NCBI GenBank assembly: GCA_943736015.1
Contig: OX031058.1
Coordinates: 15,091,001 to 15,155,000 of the forward strand
Length of the DNA: 64,000 nt
Direction of reading: 5' to 3'
Source: Tridacna crocea
Taxonomy: Eukaryota; Mollusca; Bivalvia; Cardiida; Cardiidae
The first letter of the stretch is position 1; each line of letters opens with the position of its first letter. Below are positions 23,857 to 62,886 of the stretch, piece after piece. Both the position numbers and the translations under genes were made by a program. The notes below the pieces were generated by a model. It worked only from the letters and a program-made list of their open reading frames with translations, was not told where the DNA came from and did no database searches.

Positions 23857-24580
23857 ATTTATGGATCCGTAATGTTCTTCTAACAAATAACACAATCTGA
23901 GTATGAATGAAAATTTTTGCAAATAGCAAAAAGTAACAACTCGTGTCAGCATGCCCTGTTGATACTTTTGTATAACCATTAAGCTTCCTTTTCACAGACA
24001 TTACTGAAACATTTTTTCCACGTCGACCTCCTCTTGATCATCGTCGTGCTAAAAGCAATTAAAGCTCCTTTTTTCACGATTAACACAAAAACTGTCCAGC
24101 ACCGGATTTTTAAAAATCTTAGTTTGTTTGGCAAAGAATCAAGTTTCGTTATCGAATGATTTATAGTATTTCGAAATAGAATGTATATAACGTGACTGCC
24201 TAATAATGAGCGATTCAAAGTGTAGAATACGTAGAATTAGTAGCTTCATTCAGCATTTTGAATACGATGAATAACTAAAATCACCAACCGTGATAAATAA
24301 CTATCATAACCTTACCTCTTATAATTTCACGAAGTCTGAAAATGAATTGATTTGTTCGTCTAACATATCGTTCATAGTGTATGATGAAATGGGTCTGTTG
24401 ATGAAGGTAAAGAACATGCCGCCTGATCTTGAATCTGCACTTCCCTCTTGTTTAGTTTAGTTCACAAGATGCACTTGACATAAGTTGGAATTTTGAGATA
24501 AAAAGGTTTACTAAACAAGTCGAGGAAAAAAGTTATAGGAAAACCCCTAGCGACTATAATGACATTGTTTGACGACGAGT

Positions 24581-24807
24581 TTAACCCATTACCACACAAT
24601 CCCTTCTTTTGACGACCTTGAGAAAGAACTTTTATAAAACATTGTGGGAAAAGGAGAAAATGGTGGTTACCAGCATTTTCTCCTTTTCCCACAATGTTTT
24701 CTACCCTTCACAAAACAAATTTCAAATTTTCAGTCACTTTTATTTTTTCGTCTGCAAATGCTTTCGATTTGGACAAGCCTAAAATACTGTCGTTAGGTAA
24801 TGAGTAA
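24581..24807. mobile_element. Family-A MITE, full length
   Basis: TTAACCCATTACCACACAATCC to TTAGGTAATGAGTAA; near-perfect hairpin. Confidence 0.88.
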
Positions 24808-51123: not shown

Positions 51124-51129
51124 GGTAAC
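51124..51129. repeat. Left target-site duplication GGTAAC
   Basis: GGTAAC precedes the left terminus and recurs directly after the right terminus. Because the ends also carry TA, the same data can be read as an 8-bp duplication TAGGTAAC (51122-51129 and 62879-62886), with the element ending CCACCG on the right. Confidence 0.75.
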
Positions 51130-51205
51130 TACGGTGGCACAAAAGTGACATGGAAGATATATTTTATACTACGTGCGCACGCAGTAGCTAATACGTGCGC
51201 ACGTA
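51130..51205 (+). repeat. Left terminal inverted repeat (76 bp)
   Basis: Matches the complement of 62805-62880 without a mismatch and diverges at the next base. It includes the unique part TACGGTGGCACAAAAG...TTTTATAC and the first two palindromic array units. Confidence 0.9.
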
Positions 51206-51514
51206 ATAACTAATACGTGCGCACGTAATACTATTGCGTGCGCACGTATTAGCTAATACGTGCGCACGTATTAACTAATACGTGCGCACGCAGTAGCTAG
51301 TACGTGAGCACGCAGTAGCTAATACGTGCGCACGTAATAACTAATACGTGCGCACGTAATACTATTGCGTGCGCACGTATTAGCTAATACGTGCGCACGT
51401 ATTAACTAATACGTGCGCACGCAGTAGCTAGTACGTGCGCACGCAGTAGCTAATACGTGCGCACGTATTAACTAATACGTGCGCACGTAATAACTTTTAC
51501 GTGCGCACGTATTA
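51170..51514. repeat. Left subterminal array of ACGTGCGCACGT palindromes (16 units)
   Basis: Sixteen copies of a self-complementary core, ACGTGCGCACGT or GCGTGCGCACG variants, are spaced about 21-22 bp apart by short AT spacers such as AATAACTAAT and GCAGTAGCTA. One unit is altered to GTGAGCAC. A block of about six units is itself repeated, so the array grew by higher-order duplication. These are plausible binding sites for the THAP finger or transposase (inference). The array also abuts the promoter of the transposase gene. Confidence 0.92.
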
Positions 51515-51519
51515 ATCGA

Positions 51520-51528
51520 CCAATCAGA
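51520..51528 (+). promoter_or_regulatory. CCAAT box upstream of the transposase gene
   Basis: CCAATCAGA lies just inside the last left array unit and about 58 bp before the ATG at 51587. The same word, with nearly the same preceding bases, occurs inverted at the other end of the element. CCAAT boxes bind NF-Y in animals; function here is inferred from position. Confidence 0.45.
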
Positions 51529-51586
51529 CCTCTACCCCTATGATGTCACTCTGGTAAACAAATATCAGTCGCGCTGCATTTTCACT

Positions 51587-51988
51587 ATGCCTCGAGTAAA
51601 TTATTGTGTTCCTTTGTGTACTGCCGAATCTAAAGGTAACCTACCTTTTTATCGGCTTCCCAAGAAAGGAACGCGTGAAAGACAGACTTGGATAAGGCTG
51701 ATTCGGAACGAAAACTTGCGAACGGAGTCTCAATGGACCAGCGTGTGCAGTCTCCACTTTGTTAATGGACGCAAGACATATGATGACTCTTGTCCTACAA
51801 TCTTTCCAAGGTCGCAAGATTGGGAGAAAGTAATTTACACGTATAACAACAGATCTGACCCTGCAAGACCGAAATTCAGATCACTCAAAATGGTTCAGCC
51901 TCAGTCTTACAGGAAAAGACAGAAAACTGGTGAAGACGGAAGTACAGCAAGAGAAAAGAGGATGAGAAAAAGACTTTTTGATACACAG
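51587..51988 (+). CDS. Exon 1: THAP domain
   Basis: Encodes 134 residues from ATG to a CAG/GTATAC donor. Reading past the donor gives a stop at 52013-52015. The C-X3-C ... C-X2-H pattern and the invariant Trp/PTIF positions identify a THAP zinc finger, a sequence-specific DNA-binding domain found in P-element, Kolobok and ISL2EU-type transposases and in host THAP proteins. The C-terminal third is basic (KRQKT, REKRMRKR), suggesting a nuclear localisation signal. Confidence 0.88.
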
Positions 51989-54900
51989 GTATACCATATT
52001 CTTTTAAATCAATAGATGCAAATGGATGCATATTTTGGACAATAACCAACCAATCATTTTTTTTTTACCAAACGAGCCCGACTTTAAAACGACCATGTGA
52101 AAGAAACATTTTGAAAAGATTATAGTAACCAACAATTTTTCCTTAACCCACAATGTTTTCATACCTGCCAGTGACAAATATGTCATCGGCAAAGTTGGAT
52201 GTGTCAAATATTGTCTGTTGTTTGGTCAAGGGTTAAAATCACAACCCGTAACTTACTAAGATTAAAGTTCAATCAAACAAACTAACAGCAAATCAGCTTA
52301 GTTCTTTACCAAACAACAAAGTTTTTAAATGGACCACATTCGAAGCATTTGCAGACAACACATCATACCAAATGATGATTTATGTTGCCACTCCTATAGA
52401 AAACATTGTGAGAAAAGGAGAAAATGCTGTTTAACAGCATTTCTCCTTTTCCCATCTGGTTTTCAAAATGCTTCTTCCATATGGTTGTTAAAAGCTGGTA
52501 TTGGCTTAACTCTTTACCACACAATCCTACCTTGTAACGACCCAACGAAGGCATGGGCGGCTCCAGAGGGGGGGACTGGGGGTCCAGACACCCCTGGAAT
52601 TTTGGCAAAAATGCGGTTGCCGGATTCGTGAAATGGTACTGGTTTGATATTGCACAGCATTTATGTAAAATACAGCCATAACTTTAAAAAAGAAAGGTTC
52701 TAAATGTGGAGACTTCCTCATGGTTAGAACTGGAAACGTTGACTTTTCTTGTAAACGGCTTACATCCACTGAAATCTGGAAACCAAAGTATCATATAATA
52801 AGACAAGTGTGTTTTTGGTGGGACCCCCCCTGAGAAAGATATCTGGATCCGCGCTTGGAAGGGGTGTTGTTGAAAGATTTTGAATGCTGGTTACCGGCAT
52901 ATTCTCCTTTTCCCAAAAGGTTTTCCACCTTTCCCAAAACAATTTCGATTTTTTAGTCACCTTTAATTTGTCATCTGCAAGTGCTTTGAATTAGGACTAG
53001 TTTAAAGAGGGTAGTCCACTGGCCTAACATTGAAAGGATTCAGTCTGTCTCTTGCTATTTCACAATATTTTGTCTAAAATATTACCCTTGATCTTGATGG
53101 TGTAGTTTACTTGATTGAAGGATTGTTTAACTGGTATCACATATTCATGTATTTCCTGGGTTTCTGTAGTACAAGGCTGGTGCCCTGAAGTGTCTTGCCC
53201 AGGACACTCCAATAAAAAACATAGTGTATCCAGTGACGCTTTAACTCGGAGCCTCCACTATCTTTTGGTCCACATGAAGGTGTAATTTTTTCTTTTCATA
53301 CTGTATTGCCTATTTCAGGCAAATATCAGTACCTTAAATGTGGAGAGAACATCATATACAGTAAGCTTGGATGAATCTACAATCGCAGATGAAAATCATT
53401 TGTTGTTAGAGACAGTCGGACAGCCAAATGCTCAGGTTATAATATTGTCTTTTTCTTAACTCTTTACCAGGCAAGAAATTTTTATGAAAGAGTCTGTAAA
53501 TAACAGTTAAAATGTTACACAAAATATGCATCTTGTAGGGTTGAAAACTTTGTGGTTACTGGTACAAGTATTTTTGTCTTTTCCCAAAGTTAACTTTAAA
53601 TTGTCAATGTTTTAAGATTTAGAATAAATTTTGTAACATTTATAACCCATGATGTTATCTTGCATTGTGGTTGAGAAAAACTGGCAAGACTGTAGCATAG
53701 CATTTCAGAGCCCTAGCATCGTACAAAGTTTTAGTTTTGGTTGCAGATTACAAATCTTATCAAAAGTATGAAGTTTGTTTCTCCTACAGGAGAAAGAAGT
53801 ATGGAAAAAGGAGGAAATACAGAACACAAGCATTTTCTCCCTTTTTCACTCCTCAGTTTTTGATAGGTTCATAAAAGACCTGCATTCTTTGCTTTGGCAA
53901 GATGAACAAATACCTAAAAAAACAGCTGGTTAACCCTTTACCCCATAAGGCATTTCTGTGGTATCTCTAATTGACCCTAAATAACAACAAGGATGAAGCC
54001 GTTTCTTATGTGTATATGTTACCTTTTGACAGCATAGAAAACATTGTGACAAAAGGTGAAATTGCTTGTCACGAGCAATTTCACCTTTTGCCACAATGTT
54101 TTCCATAGGCTCCTGCAAGCAATGAGTAGAAATGAGTATCTATGGAGTAAAGGGTTAAGGAACAAAATCAAGTCAAAAAGACTTGTGCCTTTATGACTAT
54201 TATATTCCAAATCATAATTTTGTATTTCAGGAAAAAGCCTGCAAAAACCAAAAGGGTAGTACGGTAATAGTAAAAGACAAACTTCAACAGCTGCTCCAAA
54301 ATATTCTAAACAAATTATCCTCCCAAGATTCTGACCCTGATCCAAACAGTATAAGGGAATTACAAGCTCTGCTGATTGTTGTGACCAAATTGCTTATGAA
54401 TGTGAAAGAGCAGTTGGACTGTGTGGTTGAGTTAAGACATTATGACAGATTTTTCCTAAAAAGGTTTGAGGGAAGTGATTCGGACATTAGGTTTTTGGAC
54501 AGGATTTTACTCCTACCAGGCTTTGATGACATTCTATCATAATATGCTGGAGCAGGAGGCAAAATGTTTACAGTACTGGGGCGCAAATAACTCAACCACT
54601 AAAGATGGAGACAGTTTGAAATGTGGCAGAAAGAGAACACTTATTCCAATGGATGAAATGTTCATGACCCTAGTGAAACTAAGGCAAGGCTCTGCCAACT
54701 TGGATCTGGCAGAGAGGTTTGGTATTAGTGAAATCCATGTGTCACGCATATTTATTACATGGGTGAACTTTATGCACAGTGTCTTGTGTAGTTTAGACAT
54801 TTGGATGTCAAGGGGAAAAATAAGGCGTAACAGTCCAAATATATTCAAGGAAATTTACCAGGATGTACAGATTATAATTGACTGTACAGAAATATCACTG

Positions 54901-55392
54901 GAAAGACCATCTGACTTTGAGGTACAGGCAGCAACTTACTCCACGTACAAGAGTTGCAACACGTTGAAAGACCTCATTGGTATAAGTCCAAATGGAATTC
55001 CGACATTCGTTTCAGATCTTTTCGAAGGGATTATTTCTGACAATCAGATAATTTTTGATAGTGGATTGGTTGAAAAACTTCAGGAGGGAGATGCCATCAT
55101 GGCAGACCGTGGATTTACAGGACGGGAGTCTCTTGCAAAACATAAAATTAGACTTGTAACGCCACATTTCTTGAGCGATAAAGACCAAATGCAAATACAG
55201 AATCTTGTTGAATCTGTTTCTATTGCTCGTGTCAGAATTCATGTTGAAAGGCTCATGGGGCACTTGAAGCAGTGGGTCATTTTGTCTTCTAAAGTGCCTA
55301 TCACTTTTTGGAAGCACATTAATCACATCTTCCAGTTGTGTGTAATGTTGGTTTTATTTTGGCCCCCATTAGTAGATAAGGACTCTGAGTAA
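51587..55392 (+). CDS. THAP zinc-finger / DDE_Tnp_4 transposase, three exons, one frameshift
   Basis: Predicted exons are 51587-51988, 53319-53435 and 54231-55392. Introns start GT (CAG/GTATAC, CAG/GTTATA) and end TTTCAG; both are phase 0. Exon 1 encodes an N-terminal THAP domain (C2CH: Cys7, Cys11, Cys54, His57, with Trp35 and the terminal PTIFP motif at 70-74) that would bind element DNA. Exon 2 is 39 codons of linker. Exon 3 encodes a helical region, a helix-turn-helix and the catalytic RNase H-like DDE domain. The first frame of exon 3 stops at 54542, while the catalytic frame overlaps it. One extra T in the T5 run at 54492-54496 would explain the switch. Without it the product would be roughly 560 residues, normal for such transposases. 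Introns contain MITEs. Confidence 0.85.
51989..53318 (+). other. Intron 1 of the transposase gene, filled with MITEs
   Basis: Contains degenerate family-A copies at about 52055-52233 and 52298-52511, and a third copy (about 52507-53020) split by another element. No coding sequence is seen. Confidence 0.7.
52553..52857. mobile_element. Short GGCGG(A/C)TCCAG-ended element inserted in a family-A MITE
   Basis: The unit begins GGGCGGCTCCAGAGGGGGGG and ends CCCCCCCTGAGAAAG...CTGGATCCGCGC, i.e. inverted ends rich in G on one strand. The family-A sequence resumes after it (GAATGCTGGTTACCGGCAT). This end pattern is common among invertebrate MITEs, as I recall. Confidence 0.6.
53319..53435 (+). CDS. 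Exon 2: linker
   Basis: A 117-bp in-phase exon bounded by TATTTCAG before it and GTTATA after it. It begins ANISTLNVE and contains no known motif. It is supported mainly by correct splice borders, an open frame, and phase fit with the exons on either side. Confidence 0.6.
53930..54158. mobile_element. Family-B MITE in transposase intron 2
   Basis: TTAACCCTTTACC...GGAGTAAAGGGTTAA, with a central hairpin GTGACAAAAGGTGAAATTGC / GAGCAATTTCACCTTTTG. Close match to 49630-49859. It ends 72 bp before the exon-3 acceptor. Confidence 0.85.
54231..55392 (+). CDS. Exon 3: DDE_Tnp_4 catalytic exon (frameshifted)
   Basis: The catalytic frame (54466-55392, 308 residues) has a helix-turn-helix at about residues 61-103, then the catalytic triad: Asp139 in IIDCTE, Asp214 in MADRGF and Glu261 in HVERLMG. 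The ERPS motif after the first Asp and the IHVER motif around Glu are typical of THAP-linked DDE_Tnp_4 transposases. All three acidic residues are present. The N-terminal 87 codons lie in another frame, ending at 54542. The two frames meet near T5 at 54492-54496. Confidence 0.9.
54492..54496 (+). other. Probable 1-nt insertion in a T5 run (frameshift)
   Basis: Before this run the exon-3 frame reads SDSDIR. After it the catalytic frame reads FWTGFYSYQALM. Removing one T joins the two. A homopolymer indel can be a real mutation or an assembly error; the sequence alone cannot decide. Confidence 0.7.
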
Positions 55393-55411
55393 ATTGATGA
55401 GTGAGTGCAGA

Positions 55412-55460
55412 ACCATTCTAAGTGCCTATACATGTACATTGTATAGGCACTTAGAATGGT
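55412..55460. repeat. Perfect 20-bp stem hairpin 20 bp after the transposase stop
   Basis: ACCATTCTAAGTGCCTATAC and its exact complement are separated by nine bases. No mismatch is present. It could be a 3'-end RNA structure or a tiny palindromic insertion. Confidence 0.85.
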
Positions 55461-55680
55461 ATTGAACTCATCCAACAAAATGGTGATGATACATGTACTT
55501 TTCAACAGAATTATGAATGCAGAGCAGTCATTATTTAACAAAGTGAACTTGTCATCTGCAGATACAATTTTGACAAAGGTCTGAAATTTTGTCGTCTGGT
55601 AAAGATTTGAACCTTTATCCTGCAATGCCAACTGTCAACTCCTCTTGGAATTAATGGATTTGAAAACTTTTAAGTTTTAA

Positions 55681-55848
55681 TTAACCCTTTCCCAAACAAG
55701 CTCTGGTTTTTACTTGTCTGCCATACAAATCTTTTGAAAATACTGTGGGAAAGGAGAAATTGCTTGTAATGAGTGAAACTTAAAATTATCGTCTGCAAGC
55801 CCTTTCAATTGAGAAGAGTCTAAAATTTGTCGTTTGGGACAGGGTTAA
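55681..55848. mobile_element. Family-A MITE, internally deleted
   Basis: TTAACCCTTTCCCAAACAAG to GGGACAGGGTTAA. The right arm of the central hairpin is missing. Confidence 0.8.
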
Positions 55849-56119
55849 CAATTAATCTTTCTGTGCAAATGTGTTCCATTTTTACCCACCTATTACTTGT
55901 CAGTAAAACAAATGTTAGCTATTAAAGGTTTCTCTGGAAAAGGGAAAAGCATCGACTTTCATAAATCTGACTGCAGGCTAACCAGAGTCTAAATTTTTCA
56001 CTTACATTTTATTTCCATTTTCATCAGGACAAATGTTTTGAAGAAGTAACAATTACTAAATTTCAAAATTTTTTATTAAAATGGCACATTTTATAAACAT
56101 GGTGAGTAAGTGTTGTGAA

Positions 56120-56945
56120 TTTCAATCTATTACCACACAGTCCTGAATTAAGCATTTCACTATAAGAAACTTTTGAAAACACTGTGGAAAGATAGAAAAA
56201 GTGCTGGTAACCAGCATTTTCTCCCTTTCCAAGTTTCCTTTCTTTAGATGAGAGACAAATTTCATATTTCATTGACATTTTATTTGTGATCTGCTAATGC
56301 TTTCAAAGTGAGTAAGTCTACAATTCTGTCATCTAGTAAAATAAATTATGTGTCAACTTTCCTTAGTCTTTTTTACATAATATATATTATGTTTATCAGT
56401 GAAAGTCTTAAATGGAAGAAAAAATGCATAATTGTAGACATTGTGGACATCTTAAATTAACACATTACCAAACAACCTTGAGTTTTGATTATCATAAGAA
56501 AGAAAGCTCTATAAAACTTTGTGAGAAAAGGAGGAATTCATTTAAATGCTGGTTACCAGTAGTTTCTATTTTCTCACAAGTGCTCTAGGTTTTACCTAAT
56601 GACAAATTTTTAGATTTGTCCAAATTCAGCAGACGACAATATAAACGTGATTCAAAAACTGAAACTTAACTTTAGATGTGTAGAAAAAATTTTGGGAAAA
56701 GGAGAAAATGCTGGTTACCAGCATTTTCTCCTTTTCCTGCGATGTTTTCAGAAGGCTGCTTCCTCTGGGTCGTAAAAACCAGGGATTGTTTGGTAGAGGG
56801 TTAAATGCAAATTCTTTGTTCTAACACATAGCATACAATCCCATCTTTTAACACTCCTTAGAAAGAAGGCTTTTCGAACAAATTGTAGGAAAAGGAAAAA
56901 GTAATGGAAACATTTTCTCCTTTTCCCACAATGTTTTCTACCATT
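56120..56945. repeat. Cluster of degenerate family-A MITEs after the nuclease stop
   Basis: At least four partial copies, roughly 56120-56345, 56456-56610, 56600-56804 and 56820-56945. They are recognised by GAAAATGCTGGTTACCAGCATTTTC-type hairpins and TGGTAGAGGGTTAA ends. The last one overlaps the stop codon of the nuclease gene. Confidence 0.75.
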
Positions 56946-57669
56946 CAAGACCTATTTTTATCCTTTTTTTATAAAACCCCTGAGCTACCAAAGTAGGTAC
57001 AATGTTCATTGTGTGGAAGTCCAACAACTTTTCTTTCACTTTTTCCCAAAAACTTGGATCAAAGTTCACACGAAGTATAAAAAATTCCTCATCTTCTTTA
57101 GTGAAAAGAACAAAGTCACACCATCTTCGTTTCGTCACTCCCATTTGCATTTGAATTTGATAGTAATGAGAGTGGCTTTCTTTCATAATGATTGTTTCTC
57201 CAAATGCTTTAAGTGAAAACTGGCTAGAAGACCTTTTTCTTTCAATGGCTTCTTTAGGAGAAATATCTCTACAAGAATAAATACACTTAATTTCAACCAA
57301 TCCATGTGGATCTTTCTCTGAAGGATCTGTAATCAGGCCATCAGGACTAGCAGCAAGCTGCCCAAATTCCAAATCAACAAACAAACCACACCCACAGACT
57401 GTTATATTTACACCTTGTGCTGCTTTCTGCTGCTTGTATTTAACGACAACAACTTCATTATCTATCCCATATTTGACAGCTGGAATGGATGTCAATTTTG
57501 GTTTTCTTATCTGAATAATATCTTTAACTAGGGTTCCAATATTTCCCTTTCCGACAAACTTTTTCGCCTTGCTTGCTGTAATCCTGCCTTTCTTGTGCCT
57601 GAACCACAATGAGTTATTTGCTTGTCCACGAGTTTGCTTTTCGATTTCTTTCTGTCGTGCCTCTGTGAC
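56938..57669 (-). CDS. Exon 5: YqaJ-type nuclease domain
   Basis: An acceptor (CTTTATAG) precedes VTEARQKEIEKQTRGQAN, and the frame runs open to a TAG at 56938-56940. Motifs, numbered from the TTG (Leu) codon at 57609-57607, are RITASKA (9-15), the glutamate of YGIDNE (52), SPDG (88-91), EIKC (106-109) and a YYQIQMQMG segment about 50 residues later. The SPDG aspartate and the E-x-K pair are the metal-binding core of the YqaJ / lambda-exonuclease family (PD-(D/E)XK fold), and all are present. The frame is intact over 243 codons, unlike the upstream exons. Confidence 0.88.
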   Translation of the reverse strand, partial: VTEARQKEIEKQTRGQANNSLWFRHKKGRITASKAKKFVGKGNIGTLVKDIIQIRKPKLTSIPAVKYGIDNEVVVVKYKQQKAAQGVNITVCGCGLFVDLEFGQLAASPDGLITDPSEKDPHGLVEIKCIYSCRDISPKEAIERKRSSSQFSLKAFGETIIMKESHSHYYQIQMQMGVTKRRWCDFVLFTKEDEEFFILRVNFDPSFWEKVKEKLLDFHTMNIVPTLVAQGFYKKRIKIGLEW

Positions 57670-57717
57670 CTATAAAGGCAATAAATTAGCTGTTATCATT
57701 TATCGACTGCTTTCAAG

Positions 57718-57900
57718 TTAACTCTTTATCACACAATCCTGACTTTTAATGACCCTGAGAAAAAAACCTTTTAGAAAACCCTATGGGAAAAGGAGAAAAT
57801 GCTGGTAACCAGCATTTCATCCTTTTCACACATTGTTTTTGACCCTGCTGGAAAAAAAATCAACCTTTTTCTTTCTTTACTAAACCTAATGTAAAATATT
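57718..57900. mobile_element. Family-A MITE in nuclease intron 4
   Basis: TTAACTCTTTATCACACAATCC followed by the central hairpin; the right end is degraded. It lies close to the exon-5 acceptor. Confidence 0.75.
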
Positions 57901-57939
57901 GCAGATGAAAAATGTTGCTTGCTTAAAGATTTGATGTCT

Positions 57940-58147
57940 TTAACCCCTTACCAAACAATCCCTGGTTTTCAGGACTCCAGAGACAGAAGTTGTTTGAAAA
58001 CATGGTAACCAGCATTTTCTCCTTTTCCCACAATGTTTTCTACCCTTCACAAATTAAATTTCATTTTTTGTGTCACATTAATTTTGTCGTCTGCAAAAGC
58101 TTTCAATTTGGACAAGTCTAAAACTTTGTTGTTCCGTAAGGAGTTAA
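57940..58147. mobile_element. Family-A MITE in nuclease intron 4
   Basis: TTAACCCCTTACCAAACAATCC to CCGTAAGGAGTTAA. The left hairpin arm is partly deleted. Confidence 0.8.
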
Positions 58148-58181
58148 CAGAACTTTATGTTAACTTTCTTACTGAGTTCAT

Positions 58182-58410
58182 TTAATCCATTACCACACTA
58201 TCCCTACTTTCGACGATCCTGAGAAAGAAGCCTTTAGAAAACATTGTGGGAAAAGGAGAAAATGCTGGTTACCAGCATTTTCTCCTTTTCCCACAATGTT
58301 TTCTACCCTTCACAACACATATTTCAAATTTTCAGTCATTTTTATTTTGTTGTCTGCAATTGCTATCGATTTGGACCAGCCTAAAATATTGTCCTTTTGT
58401 GATGAGTTAA
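58182..58410. mobile_element. Family-A MITE in nuclease intron 4
   Basis: Near-full copy with an intact central hairpin; TTAA at both ends. Confidence 0.88.
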
Positions 58411-58460
58411 ACTGAGGTTGTTGATAAAAAATTATAAGATAAAGTCTTATATGTAAATAC

Positions 58461-58556
58461 CTTAAGTTTTTGACAAACTATTTCCTCTGGAAGTTGATGA
58501 GTATTAATCCTCTCTTCTTCACCTTCACTAGCAGTATCAGTGCTTGAGTTAAGAAT
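58461..58556 (-). CDS. Exon 4: acidic linker
   Basis: A 96-bp phase-0 exon between TTCTTCAG and AAG/GTATTT. It encodes 32 residues with an acidic run (SEGEEER) and the segment LPEEIVCQKLK. It joins exon 5 in frame. No known domain. Confidence 0.6.
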
Positions 58557-58634
58557 CTGAAGAAAATGAATTAAATAGTTTTTCATGTATGTTGGGTTAT
58601 TTTTTATCCTTTTTATCCTTTGCTTTTCATTCTA

Positions 58635-58750
58635 ACCTTCACAATGCTAAAATCAAGTAAACTTGCTTTTACCATCAGTGCAGATCAAGATCAGACTACA
58701 CAGAGCATGCAGACTAATCTTTGATCTATATTGTCCAATACCTTACTACA
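58635..58750. mobile_element. Family-G hairpin fragment in nuclease intron 3
   Basis: CAGATCAAGATCAGACTACACAG / GCAGACTAATCTTTGATCTA hairpin; ends not complete. Confidence 0.6.
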
Positions 58751-58994
58751 GGTTATGGTTGAAACAACCTTGCACAATGTTTGAAAAAAGTTCATCATGT
58801 TTACTCAGCATTGTAAATGTTGACAAAAGTCAACGTAAATGTTAAAGAATACATTTGTCAACCACCTGAAAGATTGGCACAGTGCTGTCCCTGTGATTAT
58901 TTTCAACAATGAAAAAGACACTGCATGTAAATGTTACTTATTTCAAAGAAGCTCCAAGAATGGTTTTCATCAATGTTGAAATTTTAGTGCTTAC

Positions 58995-59158
58995 CATCAG
59001 CAAGCCTGTTTCATGAAGTAATTGCTTCAAGTCTTCTTTTAAGGCAGTGGTATCTAAGATGGCCTTTTTCATTCATACACTGTACCCATCATAGTTTTCA
59101 AGAGGTCTTTTTCGTCATACAGAGCGTCCAAATACATGTTTTTGGACAACACGAACAC
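58995..59158 (-). pseudogene. Exon 3 of the nuclease gene, frameshifted
   Basis: Starts after CCATTTCAG and ends ATG/GTAAGC. The first half reads SKNMYLDALYDEKDLLKTMM up to a TGA at 59071-59069. The second half, one frame over, reads KKAILDTTALKEDLKQLLHE and joins exon 4 in phase. A single lost base just before the stop would explain the break. Confidence 0.55.
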
Positions 59159-59284
59159 CTGAAATGGGAGAATCAGATTTTTTGTAAAAATGTTAAAAGA
59201 ACACAGTTTGATTAGCATGGATCTTTTGTTCACCAAACATTTTGGTTTCCATTCTTAGTCCAAGTTTATTTCCAAATGCATAAC

Positions 59285-59390
59285 AGGGTTGGTGAGGCTC
59301 AGTGGTTAAAGCTTGTAATCTCAGACCTGTGAGGTATTGTGGTCACACTGATTGTGGTTCAAAGTTTCAAGTCCCAACAACAGACCTTCT
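59285..59390 (+). repeat. tRNA-like SINE head (nuclease intron 2)
   Basis: GAGGCTCAGTGGTTAAAGC resembles a Pol III A box, and GTGGTTCAAAGTTTC a degenerate B box, about 45 bp apart. Likely a decayed tRNA-derived SINE. Confidence 0.35.
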
Positions 59391-59574
59391 GGTCACATGA
59401 GAAATATAAAATGAAAAAAAAAATTGTCGAAAGCGGTAGCAAACATTATAAATACACTTCGAAAGCGATGCAAAGCGTCACACAAATGTCACAAATTTTC
59501 AGAACAAATGGGGAAAGCTTCTGATGTTTGTTGTAGTACTGTACATTGTATAATGAAAATGCACAAGACCTCTA

Positions 59575-59720
59575 TTTTAACTCTACCACACAATCCTGAC
59601 TTTAAACAACCCAAACAAAGAAGCATTTTGAAAACATTGTGGGAAAAGGAGAAAATGCTGATAACCAGCATTTTCTCCATTTCCCGCATTGTTTTCTACC
59701 CTATCAAAGACATTTTATAG
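59575..59720. mobile_element. Family-A MITE fragment in nuclease intron 2
   Basis: Central hairpin with CTACCACACAATCC at its left; truncated on the right, close to the exon-2 donor. Confidence 0.75.
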
Positions 59721-59758
59721 ATTTTTTATCACAACTGGACAATGTAAAAAAAAAATAC

Positions 59759-60400
59759 CTGTTTTTATGGGTTTGGTTAGCTTCTTTGCTTTTCTTGAAG
59801 GCAGGTGCTATTTCTGTTCTTTGGAAGTGCAGCTTTCTGGTGCATCATTTAAATATTCTTGAAAGTCCAATAGGCCAAAAAGTACAATGGCTATATGATT
59901 GCACTTTCCTCCAAGTCCTGCTGCACATAAATCTGCACTTTCCTTTCATAACTTCACCAGTGCTGTTTTTTAAAACTAAATCTGTTTGAAATGTCTTGCT
60001 CTTGTATGATGACAACACCATTCCACTGACATGCGTGTAGTCTTCCAGTTTATTAAATTTTACATCACTTACATGACCAGATTTAAAAAAGTTAAAACCT
60101 TTCCTCAGTGGTTTCTGGGCAACAGGCAAATCTATGATTGTAACAGAGTCTTCAATGTCAGAGTCTGCAGCATGAACTATCATTAATTTTCTTTTAACTA
60201 GATAGTCAACTATGCAAGCATAGTTGAAACCTCTTGGAATAGAACCCATATTTGTTGTCCAGTTTCTCAGTAATGGAAGTGGAAAATTAATATCTTTATG
60301 GATTCCGCAGTCTGCCTCAGTTAACACATTCTGACTACATTCTGATCCATCCGGGTCAACAACAAACTTTGAAAGTCCATTCTCTTGAAGATCTTTCACC
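59759..60400 (-). pseudogene. Exon 2 of the nuclease gene: SWIM zinc finger, frameshifted
   Basis: An open frame runs from 60400 through NGLSKFVVDPDG and SGMVLSSYKSKTF to KGKCRF. It then shifts near 59926-59931 to a frame reading AAGLGGKCNHIAIVLFGLL before a TAG at 59810-59808. Together the two frames give the Cys...Cys...Cys-x-His pattern of a SWIM zinc finger, a DNA/protein-binding module known next to YqaJ domains in invertebrate transposon proteins (from memory). A second shift is needed to reach the donor at 59759. Confidence 0.65.
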
Positions 60401-61318
60401 CTGAAATATCAAACAATGCACAATATTTTAAAAGTTATTCTGTACATCAAGTGTAGAATGTTACTAGTCTTAGCTTCTATGTGATAGGCTTTTCAAGTTA
60501 TAAGTATGCTAGCCTATATTTAGATATATTTATAAATAAATAAATCATTAATAAATGCCGTTTACAGGTGTTAAATTTATTAATTACAGCTGAATGGGAA
60601 TCTAGTGCATATTGCTTAAGTTTGCATATGCTGAAGTCATCTTTTTCCACATTGGTTTAGACCAAATACAGAAAATATTCTTGTGGAAAATAACTAGAGG
60701 CGCTTGAGCGCCTGTATCGCTCCACAGGCCTGATTTTTCTGTAACGGTGAAGAGAAGTTTTTAACAATTACCATTCATTACTGCATTTTAAGAAAAAAGG
60801 CTATGAAAAACATTGTGAGAAAAGAAGAAAATAAAAGTAACCTGCATTTTCTTAGTTTTACACAATAATTTCTACCCTTTTTGATACAAGTTTTACTAAT
60901 TTGAAGATTTATGTTGTCTGCAACATCTTTCAATTATGGCCAGTTATAAAAATTTTGTCGTCTGGTTATAGTTAACTCATTACCAACCTACAACATTTTA
61001 GGATTGTCCAAATAGAAAGCATTTGTAGATGAAAAAATAAAAGTGACTGAAAATTTGAAAGTTGTTTTGTGAAGGGTAGATAACATTGTGGGAAAAGGTT
61101 ACCAGCATTTTCTCCTTTTCCCACAATCTTTTCTAAAGTCTTCTTTGTCAGGGATCAGTTTGATTGGATAACAAAATGCCTTATCACAACAGTAAAGCCC
61201 TGTCCCTCTTTGTACTAGGTCACCAGTAGGTCAACAAACCTTTACCAGAACTAATCAAAGTGCAGAGGTTCTCTTGTTTTATATGAAAAGGATTATAGAT
61301 TATGTAAAGCAACCATCT

Positions 61319-61546
61319 TTAACTCTTTACCAAACGACAATATTTGGGATGTGACCAAACTGAAAGCATTTGCAGACAACAAATTAAACATTGATGAAAT
61401 GATGATTTCTCTCTTTGATGGAGTAGAAAACACTGAGGGAAAAGGAGAAAATGCTGATTACCAGCATTTTCTCCTTTTCCAAGAGTGTTTTCCAAAGAGT
61501 TCTTCTTTAGGGTTATTAAAAGTCAGGAATGTATGGTAAAGACTTA
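61319..61546. mobile_element. Family-A MITE nested in the bivalve-type repeat
   Basis: TTAACTCTTTACCAAACGACAATATTTGG, central hairpin GGAGAAAATGCTG / CAGCATTTTCTCC, end TGTATGGTAAAGACTTA. Confidence 0.8.
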
Positions 61547-61935
61547 CCACCATAGGAACTAACCTGCAATACAACAATTAAATCAAAACAAACAGTTTGA
61601 GAGAAGAAATTTTTCAAAGATTTTACTTTATACCATAAAAGGAAAATGAGTCTCCCATAAAAGCCGTGTTTTTTGATGGATTTTTTTTTTAAGGAATTCT
61701 GTAGACCTCTATCTAAGGAACATTCCTGCAAAATAGTGATGCTATCCAATTAGTGGTTTGGGAGGAGAAGATTTTTAAAGGTTTTTTACTTTTGTTGCCA
61801 TGGAAACCAGAATTATTCATGGAACACAGTTATTTGAAGGAATTTGAAAGAGGACCACCTAAGGAACATTCCTGTGAAATTTGGTAAAAATCCAGGCAAT
61901 AGTTTCTGAGGAGAAGTTTTTTAAAGAAAAAGTTT

Positions 61936-61990
61936 ACGGACGCACGCACGGACGAACGAACGGACGGACGAACGGACGGACGCACGACCG
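61936..61990 (+). repeat. (GGAC/GAAC)n simple repeat
   Basis: Tandem ACGGACG, ACGAACG and ACGCACG units near the 3' end of the interspersed repeat. Confidence 0.85.
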
Positions 61991-62295
61991 ACACAACGCC
62001 ATGACAATAGCTCGCTGGCCTTCGGCAAGTGGAGCTAAAAACCGCCAGCACATAGAAGAAAATGGATCTTAGGGGAACCCCGAATCGTAGGCCAAAACAT
62101 CAAAGTTACAGACCCGTAACCATTGGAATTCCCTTTCAAAAGAATATCCACAACTTAGGCTTTGGATGCATGATAAACAGTTTAGTGTATAATCAGTCTG
62201 TATGGGCGATGTCTGAAAACATAAGGACGGCGATTCAAACTCGCTCAGAGTCACAGCTCGTCGCGCTAGTCGGCAAGATATTTCTCTTAATTTAC

Positions 62296-62456
62296 CTGTT
62301 AGTAAATCTCTTTTTTGAACAACTTGTGTTCGCCGCAAAGCCTCAACAATTCAGCCTTCTTGCGAGATCCTTTGCATCGTTGTCCTCAACAACTGGATCA
62401 GGTAGTACGGCGCCTTTTATATCTTCTTCTCATAGTTTCACTATTCTGTCCACCAT
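62296..62456 (-). pseudogene. Exon 1 of the nuclease gene: SAP-like segment with two TGA codons
   Basis: From ATG at 62456 one frame runs 53 codons plus two bases to AACAG/GTAAAT. TGA occurs at codons 9 and 38. The segment around codons 28-53 (AKDLARRLNC, then GFAANTSCSKKRF) followed by RVKDLQENGL from exon 2 resembles a SAP DNA-binding motif. Both TGAs could come from CGA by CpG deamination. The start codon is uncertain because codon 9 is a stop. Confidence 0.5.
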
Positions 62457-62589
62457 AATTATTGCAATCCAAGATTCCCCCCAAATAATCCCACAATGCA
62501 ACGCGATAAACAACGCGTGACGGTTTGAGGCCTATTCACAATCAATAAATGTCTACTTCCATCTTGAAACAATGGCTTCCGTTCATGAT

Positions 62590-62598
62590 TCTGATTGG
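62590..62598 (-). promoter_or_regulatory. CCAAT box upstream of the nuclease gene
   Basis: On the minus strand this reads CCAATCAGA, mirror-placed relative to the left end: array, then a short AT stretch, then the CCAAT box. It is about 130 bp upstream of the proposed ATG at 62456. Confidence 0.45.
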
Positions 62599-62606
62599 TG
62601 GATTAT

Positions 62607-62842
62607 TACGTGCGCACGTAATAACTAATACGTGCGCACGTATTAGCTACTGCGTGCGCACGCAGTAGCTATTACGTGCGCACGCAGTAGCTAATACGTG
62701 CGCACGTATTAGTTATTACGTGCGCACGTAATAGCTACTGCGTGCGCACGTATTAGTTAATACGTGGGCACGTATTAGCTACTGCGTGCGCACGTAATAA
62801 CTAATACGTGCGCACGTATTAGCTACTGCGTGCGCACGTAGT
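62607..62842. repeat. Right subterminal array of ACGTGCGCACGT palindromes (11 units)
   Basis: Eleven copies of the same CpG-rich palindrome at about 21-22 bp spacing. One unit is changed to CGTGGGCACG. The array is shorter than the left one, so copy number has changed independently at the two ends while the outer 76 bp stayed identical. Confidence 0.92.
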
Positions 62843-62880
62843 ATAAAATATATCTTCCATGTCACTTTTGTGCCACCGTA
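62805..62880 (-). repeat. Right terminal inverted repeat (76 bp)
   Basis: Exact inverted copy of 51130-51205. Complete identity of the two ends suggests recent mobility, or constraint by the transposase, despite damage in the coding parts. Confidence 0.9.
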
Positions 62881-62886
62881 GGTAAC
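62881..62886. repeat. Right target-site duplication GGTAAC
   Basis: Direct copy of the six bases found before the left end of the element. The bases beyond it (ACAATT) do not match the left flank, which marks the outer limit of the duplication. Confidence 0.75.

Follow-up and report, generated by a model that had tools for sequence, protein, structure and literature searches.

ISL2EU-type genes between IS3EU-like ends in a high-copy DNA transposon family of the bivalve Tridacna crocea

Can the genes of one transposon superfamily come to lie between the ends of another, and be moved by a transposase that they do not encode? This question is raised by an 11,751-bp element at positions 51130–62880 of a 64,000-nucleotide stretch of the Tridacna crocea genome (G000:C3:15091001-15155000; 1.05-Gb, 31 contigs), referred to here as the window. 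This transposon is of the cut-and-paste type and belongs to a high-copy family. It carries the gene pair known from ISL2EU elements, a THAP-DDE transposase and a YqaJ-type nuclease, between ends and target site duplications (TSDs) that resemble those of IS3EU elements. The classification of transposons presumes that transposase and duplication go together; here, the two disagree across 21 insertions of a single family. There is about an even chance that the ISL2EU genes are cargo between ends of the IS3EU type, with movement supplied in trans.

Ends, target duplications and copies of the family

The element ends in 76-bp terminal inverted repeats, at 51130–51205 (plus strand, tip TACGG) and 62805–62880 (minus strand, tip CCGTA). 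As claimed in a preliminary description of this DNA, the two repeats are identical (76/76 bases) and are flanked by direct repeats, GGTAAC being present both at 51124–51129 and, as a second copy of this 6-bp TSD, at 62881–62886. The inverted repeat is prolonged inwards by arrays of a 22-bp near-palindrome with the core ACGTGCGCACGT, with 16 units on the left (51166–51515) and 11 on the right (62603–62844), until CCAATCAGA, which is found at the inner edges of both arrays (51520, plus strand; 62590, minus strand).

Both flanks were read, in part by eye, for 22 pairs of tips in the genome. Repeated flanks were found in 21 of these pairs, with a length of 6 bp in 18 cases and 7 bp in three, and all 21 insertions (the window element, another 13 long copies, six short derivatives and a single member of a second subfamily) begin with TACGG and end with CCGTA. 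The target sequences differ among the 21 insertions, although the 18 hexamers have A or T at their two central positions in 34 of 36 cases (P 1.6e-5) and G or C at their two outer positions in 25 of 36 (P 7e-5), these positions having been picked after looking at the data. The flank repeat does not match in the 22nd pair (C3:6044796-6063752), and three further elements could not be read at both ends: C10:56455968, for which no right tip was seen in the stretch read, L047 and L051. The 22nd pair belongs to a compound locus (G000:C3:6031725-6063760) with two left tips and a single right tip, beyond which CCACCGTA is repeated; the flanks of the pair differ, and the ATTGTT outside the left tip at 6031725 recurs 8 bases past 6063752. 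One of the short derivatives, 231 bp long, has a 6-bp flank repeat, and another, of 356 bp, is made up of tips and array units; tips and array units thus seem to be sufficient in cis.

These ends are not those expected from the genes. ISL2EU elements, which belong to the PHIS superfamily, are reported to duplicate AT within A|AT|T and usually to have GG tips (Han et al., 2015; PMC4482050), and in a further paper PHIS elements are given either no TSD or one of 1–4 bp (PMC10045372). In the window family, by contrast, the TSD is 6–7 bp long and the tip is TACGG; the element is also much longer (about 11.7 kb, versus an average of about 4.8 kb for ISL2EU) and has arrays of 22-bp palindromes within its inverted repeats. 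An ordinary ISL2EU element, with 6-bp repeats arising by chance and a true duplication consisting of a dinucleotide within the tips, would account for the gene pair and its convergent layout, both typical of that group. It is nevertheless highly improbable, as varied repeats of 6–7 bp adjoin the same TAC/GTA letters in 21 of the 22 tip pairs, the single exception being the compound locus; a chance repeat is refuted by these 21 insertions.

The ends resemble those of IS3EU instead. Fungal IS3EU elements have 6-bp TSDs and TAYGG..CCRTA ends (PMC12730594), and IS3EU elements in general have TA..TA termini and usually 6-bp TSDs (PMC10045372); these are the two papers of the open-licence PMC literature found to mention both ISL2EU and a 6-bp TSD, and in the passages seen the 6-bp duplications are ascribed to IS3EU/GingerRoot or bacterial IS481 elements. 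The window family shares with IS3EU/GingerRoot the 6-bp TSD, the TAYGG..CCRTA tips and inverted repeats of more than 30 bp, and fungal members carrying passenger genes may be listed as a further shared feature. TSDs of 6–7 bp are also described for Dada elements (PMC3706591), but these lack terminal inverted repeats and target small RNA genes, whereas the window family has 76-bp repeats and varied insertion sites; the presence of terminal inverted repeats rules out a Dada identity.

A 28-bp tip pattern, with up to three mismatches allowed, was found at 375 places in the genome (188 + 187), versus none for the control. One hundred of these places, all on C1–C4, were listed and paired as facing neighbours no more than 25 kb apart, a procedure by which some tips may have been mispaired and 18 of the 100 were left unpaired. 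The result was 41 pairs, 30 of which were more than 5 kb long (22 of them spanning 11.4–12.05 kb) and 11 of which measured 245–2,226 bp. Among these listed tips, matches to both DDE and YqaJ were present in 29 of the 30 long pairs, or in 28 of 29 if the doubtful pair C3:6044796-6063752 is dropped, and a DDE match was present in none of the 11 short pairs. The preliminary description looked to further copies with the same ends and genes for support, and these exist; it also raised two objections, that other copies might never contain the YqaJ gene and that the two genes might belong to separate nested elements, and neither applies to the tips listed, 29 of the 30 long pairs having both genes. 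One 7.9-kb locus with the same tips (C4:1684012-1691919 of G000) has no listed DDE or YqaJ match.

Searches for the genes themselves, in which the best 128 of 331 candidates were scored for DDE and the best 150 of 310 for YqaJ, yielded at least 65 full-length DDE copies with 96–100% identity (rows counted by eye, window included). Several sets of copies, at about 96–98% identity, have the same shortened matches (DDE 1–235 or 1–214; YqaJ 1–168), and are probably broken subfamilies that have spread; the tips of the window family, with a 6-bp flank repeat, are found in one member of the YqaJ 1–168 set (C2:39164206-39175734).

Two genes with broken reading frames

The transposase gene lies on the plus strand. 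Its first exon (51587–51988), defined by a start and splice borders, encodes a THAP domain (PF05485, 9.3e-10); it is followed by a second exon with splice borders in phase 0 (53319–53435), and by a third (54231–54494), which opens at a splice border and runs until a break in the frame near 54,490. An open frame of 310 amino acids (54460–55392) then encodes the HTH_Tnp_4 (PF13613, 5.9e-13) and DDE_Tnp_4 (PF13359, 2.8e-38) domains, the latter being the catalytic domain. All the exon borders (51988, 53319–53435 and 54231) are of the consensus type and in phase 0, in line with the matching splice phases described previously for this gene, but the reading frame is broken near 54,490, with THAP and HTH/DDE on opposite sides of the break. 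The best match of the DDE part to a solved structure was no better than 0.9.

The nuclease gene is convergent with the transposase gene, on the minus strand. The exon at 56938–57669 matches the YqaJ (PF09588, 2.5e-9) and viral alkaline exonuclease (PF01771, Viral_alk_exo, 6.1e-12) families. Its D..EIK..QIQMQM motifs are also present in L032, a distant relative from the same genome, and comparison with solved structures gave a match to exonuclease 3syy (2e-05, over 49 residues) and a further match at 0.086. Upstream, a middle exon ending with a SWIM motif (59811–60399) aligns to L032 and has a frame broken near 59,940; two smaller exons are putative, one at 58977–59161, in which the frame breaks near 59,070, and one at 58455–58556, which is suggested by splice borders only and aligns to L032 no better than chance. 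A piece at 62302–62429, recognized by eye and with a broken frame, is probably the remnant of an N-terminal SAP region, SAP being present in relatives.

The nuclease had been described as a SAP-SWIM-YqaJ protein. A Pfam search of the window gene fragments gave no match to SAP or SWIM, and this part of the claim draws on relatives in the same genome. SAP is matched at 2.9e-07 in one family and at 0.0012, under the cut-off, in another; L032 has an open frame of 536 amino acids with SWIM (0.045, under the cut-off) followed by YqaJ (2.9e-17). Three pieces of the window nuclease (middle, SWIM and YqaJ) align to the L032 protein in the same order, the SWIM piece with an alignment E of 0.004, and the small putative exons do not align to it. 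From these comparisons, we infer that the window nuclease contained both SAP and SWIM. Its frame is broken within the SAP region (62,300–62,430), near 59,940, where the SWIM motif lies, and again near 59,070. The element had been called complete, and this is accurate for its ends and boundaries; the transposase and nuclease genes of the window copy are not intact.

The transposase break is shared by all the copies that were aligned. Eight copies, including that in the window, could be aligned with both ends (11.4–12.0 kb). None of the eight has a gap in the stretch around the transposase break, nor in the nuclease stretch near 59,070; the length at the SWIM break is the same in seven of the eight, the C8 copy differing; and the SAP region is nearly whole in seven (329–332 columns for 331 bases and no more than one gap), versus 186 columns in the C8 copy. 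The presence of the transposase break in eight copies at separate loci rules out sequencing error as its whole cause. None of the 65 full-length DDE matches has a listed open frame of more than 334 amino acids, versus 377–458 amino acids in 15 of 16 distant relatives (35–41% identity).

Selection among the eight aligned copies is not clear: four coding stretches contain 73 non-synonymous and 33 synonymous differences, whereas 2.99:1 would be expected under neutrality given the transition bias of the aligned copies themselves (P 0.094). The break could, in principle, be functional, with THAP and DDE made as separate proteins, or joined by a +1 frameshift or unrecognized splicing, in an autonomous split system. 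The occurrence of the break in all eight aligned copies is compatible with such a system, as is the lack of a listed inner stop in 60 of the 65 full-length DDE matches, although frame retention says little in this case because the copies are 96–100% identical in this domain. This explanation is unlikely given the absence of clear selection and the several breaks in the nuclease gene. Moreover, L036, a fragment about 95% identical to the family, is unbroken at this point (it has one listed TAA elsewhere), and the frame continues upstream of the DDE domain in all five of the distant relatives described below.

Movement in trans or by the resident transposase

Five distant relatives, with DDE domains 36–40% identical to that of the window, were retrieved from the same genome, and all five have a convergent YqaJ gene (for L035, by a partial match). 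The ends of two families, L032/C12 and L033/C9 (DDE 37% identical to the window), were set by comparing two copies in each case: L032 (2286–9108), compared with L042–L043, has 6.8 kb between the aligned limits, and L033, compared with L041 and L039–L040, has 7.6 kb. In all three copies with both ends, tips of AGGCC or AGCG can be read as flanked by AT at either end, these readings being 2-bp matches that are individually weak, with a partly free placement of tips that start with AGG or AGC rather than GG. An automatic search for the ends of L031, L034 and L035 gave none that could be trusted. As all three AT readings match the target given in the literature, typical ISL2EU elements seem to be present beside the window family, which on these alignments would be the odd one, and they provide a comparison for its mismatch of genes and ends.

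The explanation that we favour, with a probability of roughly 0.5, is that the element is a chimeric transposon. The ISL2EU pair, a THAP-DDE transposase and a SAP-SWIM-YqaJ nuclease, would have been captured between unrelated inverted repeats of the IS3EU type. An IS3EU-type (IS3/IS481-like) transposase would move the family in trans, recognizing the tips, and possibly also the arrays of palindromes, and cutting the target with a 6-bp stagger; it would have spread the element to scores of copies while the captured genes, which would now be passengers, decayed. Movement in trans predicts both broken frames and a lack of clear selection, and it explains how a family with broken genes could spread.

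Several observations weigh against this explanation. IS3EU elements have a transposase of the integrase type (IS3/IS481-like), and none was found among the open frames scanned, 16 of the 46 listed for the element. ISL2EU genes are present in 29 of the 30 long listed pairs, leaving only C4:1684012-1691919 as a potential autonomous partner, and inspection of the inner edges by eye revealed no relics of ISL2EU ends. The transposase start at 51587 is only about 60 bp inward of the inverted repeat and follows a CCAAT box common to both edges, an arrangement that gives the impression of being old and native. The pooled 73:33 ratio leans slightly towards purifying selection, and the signal is clearer for L036, which differs from the majority at 13 synonymous and 13 non-synonymous sites in the DDE part, the non-synonymous differences being below the neutral expectation (P 0.005). 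This ratio, together with the intact frame of L036 at the break, points to selection on the transposase at a time preceding the spread of the broken lineage; a mere passenger would have no need of such selection.

These last findings keep alive a second explanation, in which the THAP-DDE transposase, of ISL2EU (PHIS) lineage, itself came to cut TACGG..CCGTA ends and to make 6–7 bp duplications, with the YqaJ protein as a helper, the intact source copy having been lost or remaining unseen. We consider this somewhat less probable than capture. It would be consistent with the finding of ISL2EU genes alone between these tips (in 29 of 30 long listed pairs), with the position of the transposase next to the inverted repeat and with the past purifying selection on its DDE part, and the window has the longest branch (0.80) of the six DDE sequences compared. 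Bacterial relatives of IS5, such as IS903, make 9-bp duplications, which also counts in its favour. However, an independent shift to the tip motif and the duplication length of IS3EU would be required, no unbroken full-length source copy was seen among the 65 matches scored, and the PHIS duplications reported in the paper cited above do not exceed 4 bp.

The two-gene layout in itself has been known since 2015, when it was described for ISL2EU (Han et al., 2015; PMC4482050), and a study of fish gives the same layout (PMC9179366). The suspicion of an ISL2EU-class element in the preliminary description was right for the genes (THAP, HTH and a DDE transposase, in pieces around the frame break, with a YqaJ exonuclease as the second gene), and not for the ends and duplications. 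Relative to the literature found, the new features are the 6–7 bp duplications on an ISL2EU gene pair and the broken frames of both its genes, that of the transposase being broken in all eight aligned copies. No paper reporting IS3EU together with YqaJ was found in the open-licence PMC literature, a scope that leaves Repbase entries and other papers outside; ISL2EU together with YqaJ was found there in two papers, both of them cited above. If the ends are those of IS3EU, a gene set can end up as cargo of a different superfamily, and annotation based on coding content can be misled by it; if the transposase made the duplications, their length is more plastic in eukaryotic PHIS elements than the literature indicates. 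A hybrid and a eukaryotic IS5/PHIS-type transposase that evolved 6–7 bp duplications would be of similar novelty.

Minor observations

A set of ten open frames from the element, including one of those scanned for the domains above, matched no family above its cut-off. In viral contigs, five pattern matches were obtained, none of which was confirmed, and there was no match in phages. A short (ACGG)n microsatellite is present inside the element, at 61936–61986. The window also contains copies of a miniature inverted-repeat transposable element (MITE) of about 230 bp, with the ends TTAACCCATTACCACACAATCC..GGTAATGAGTTAA, which is flanked by TTAA at each end and contains a long palindrome (for example at 24580–24805 and 58181–58407). 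This MITE was found at 32 places in total, 11 of them in the element (0.94 per kb) versus 21 elsewhere in the window (0.40 per kb).

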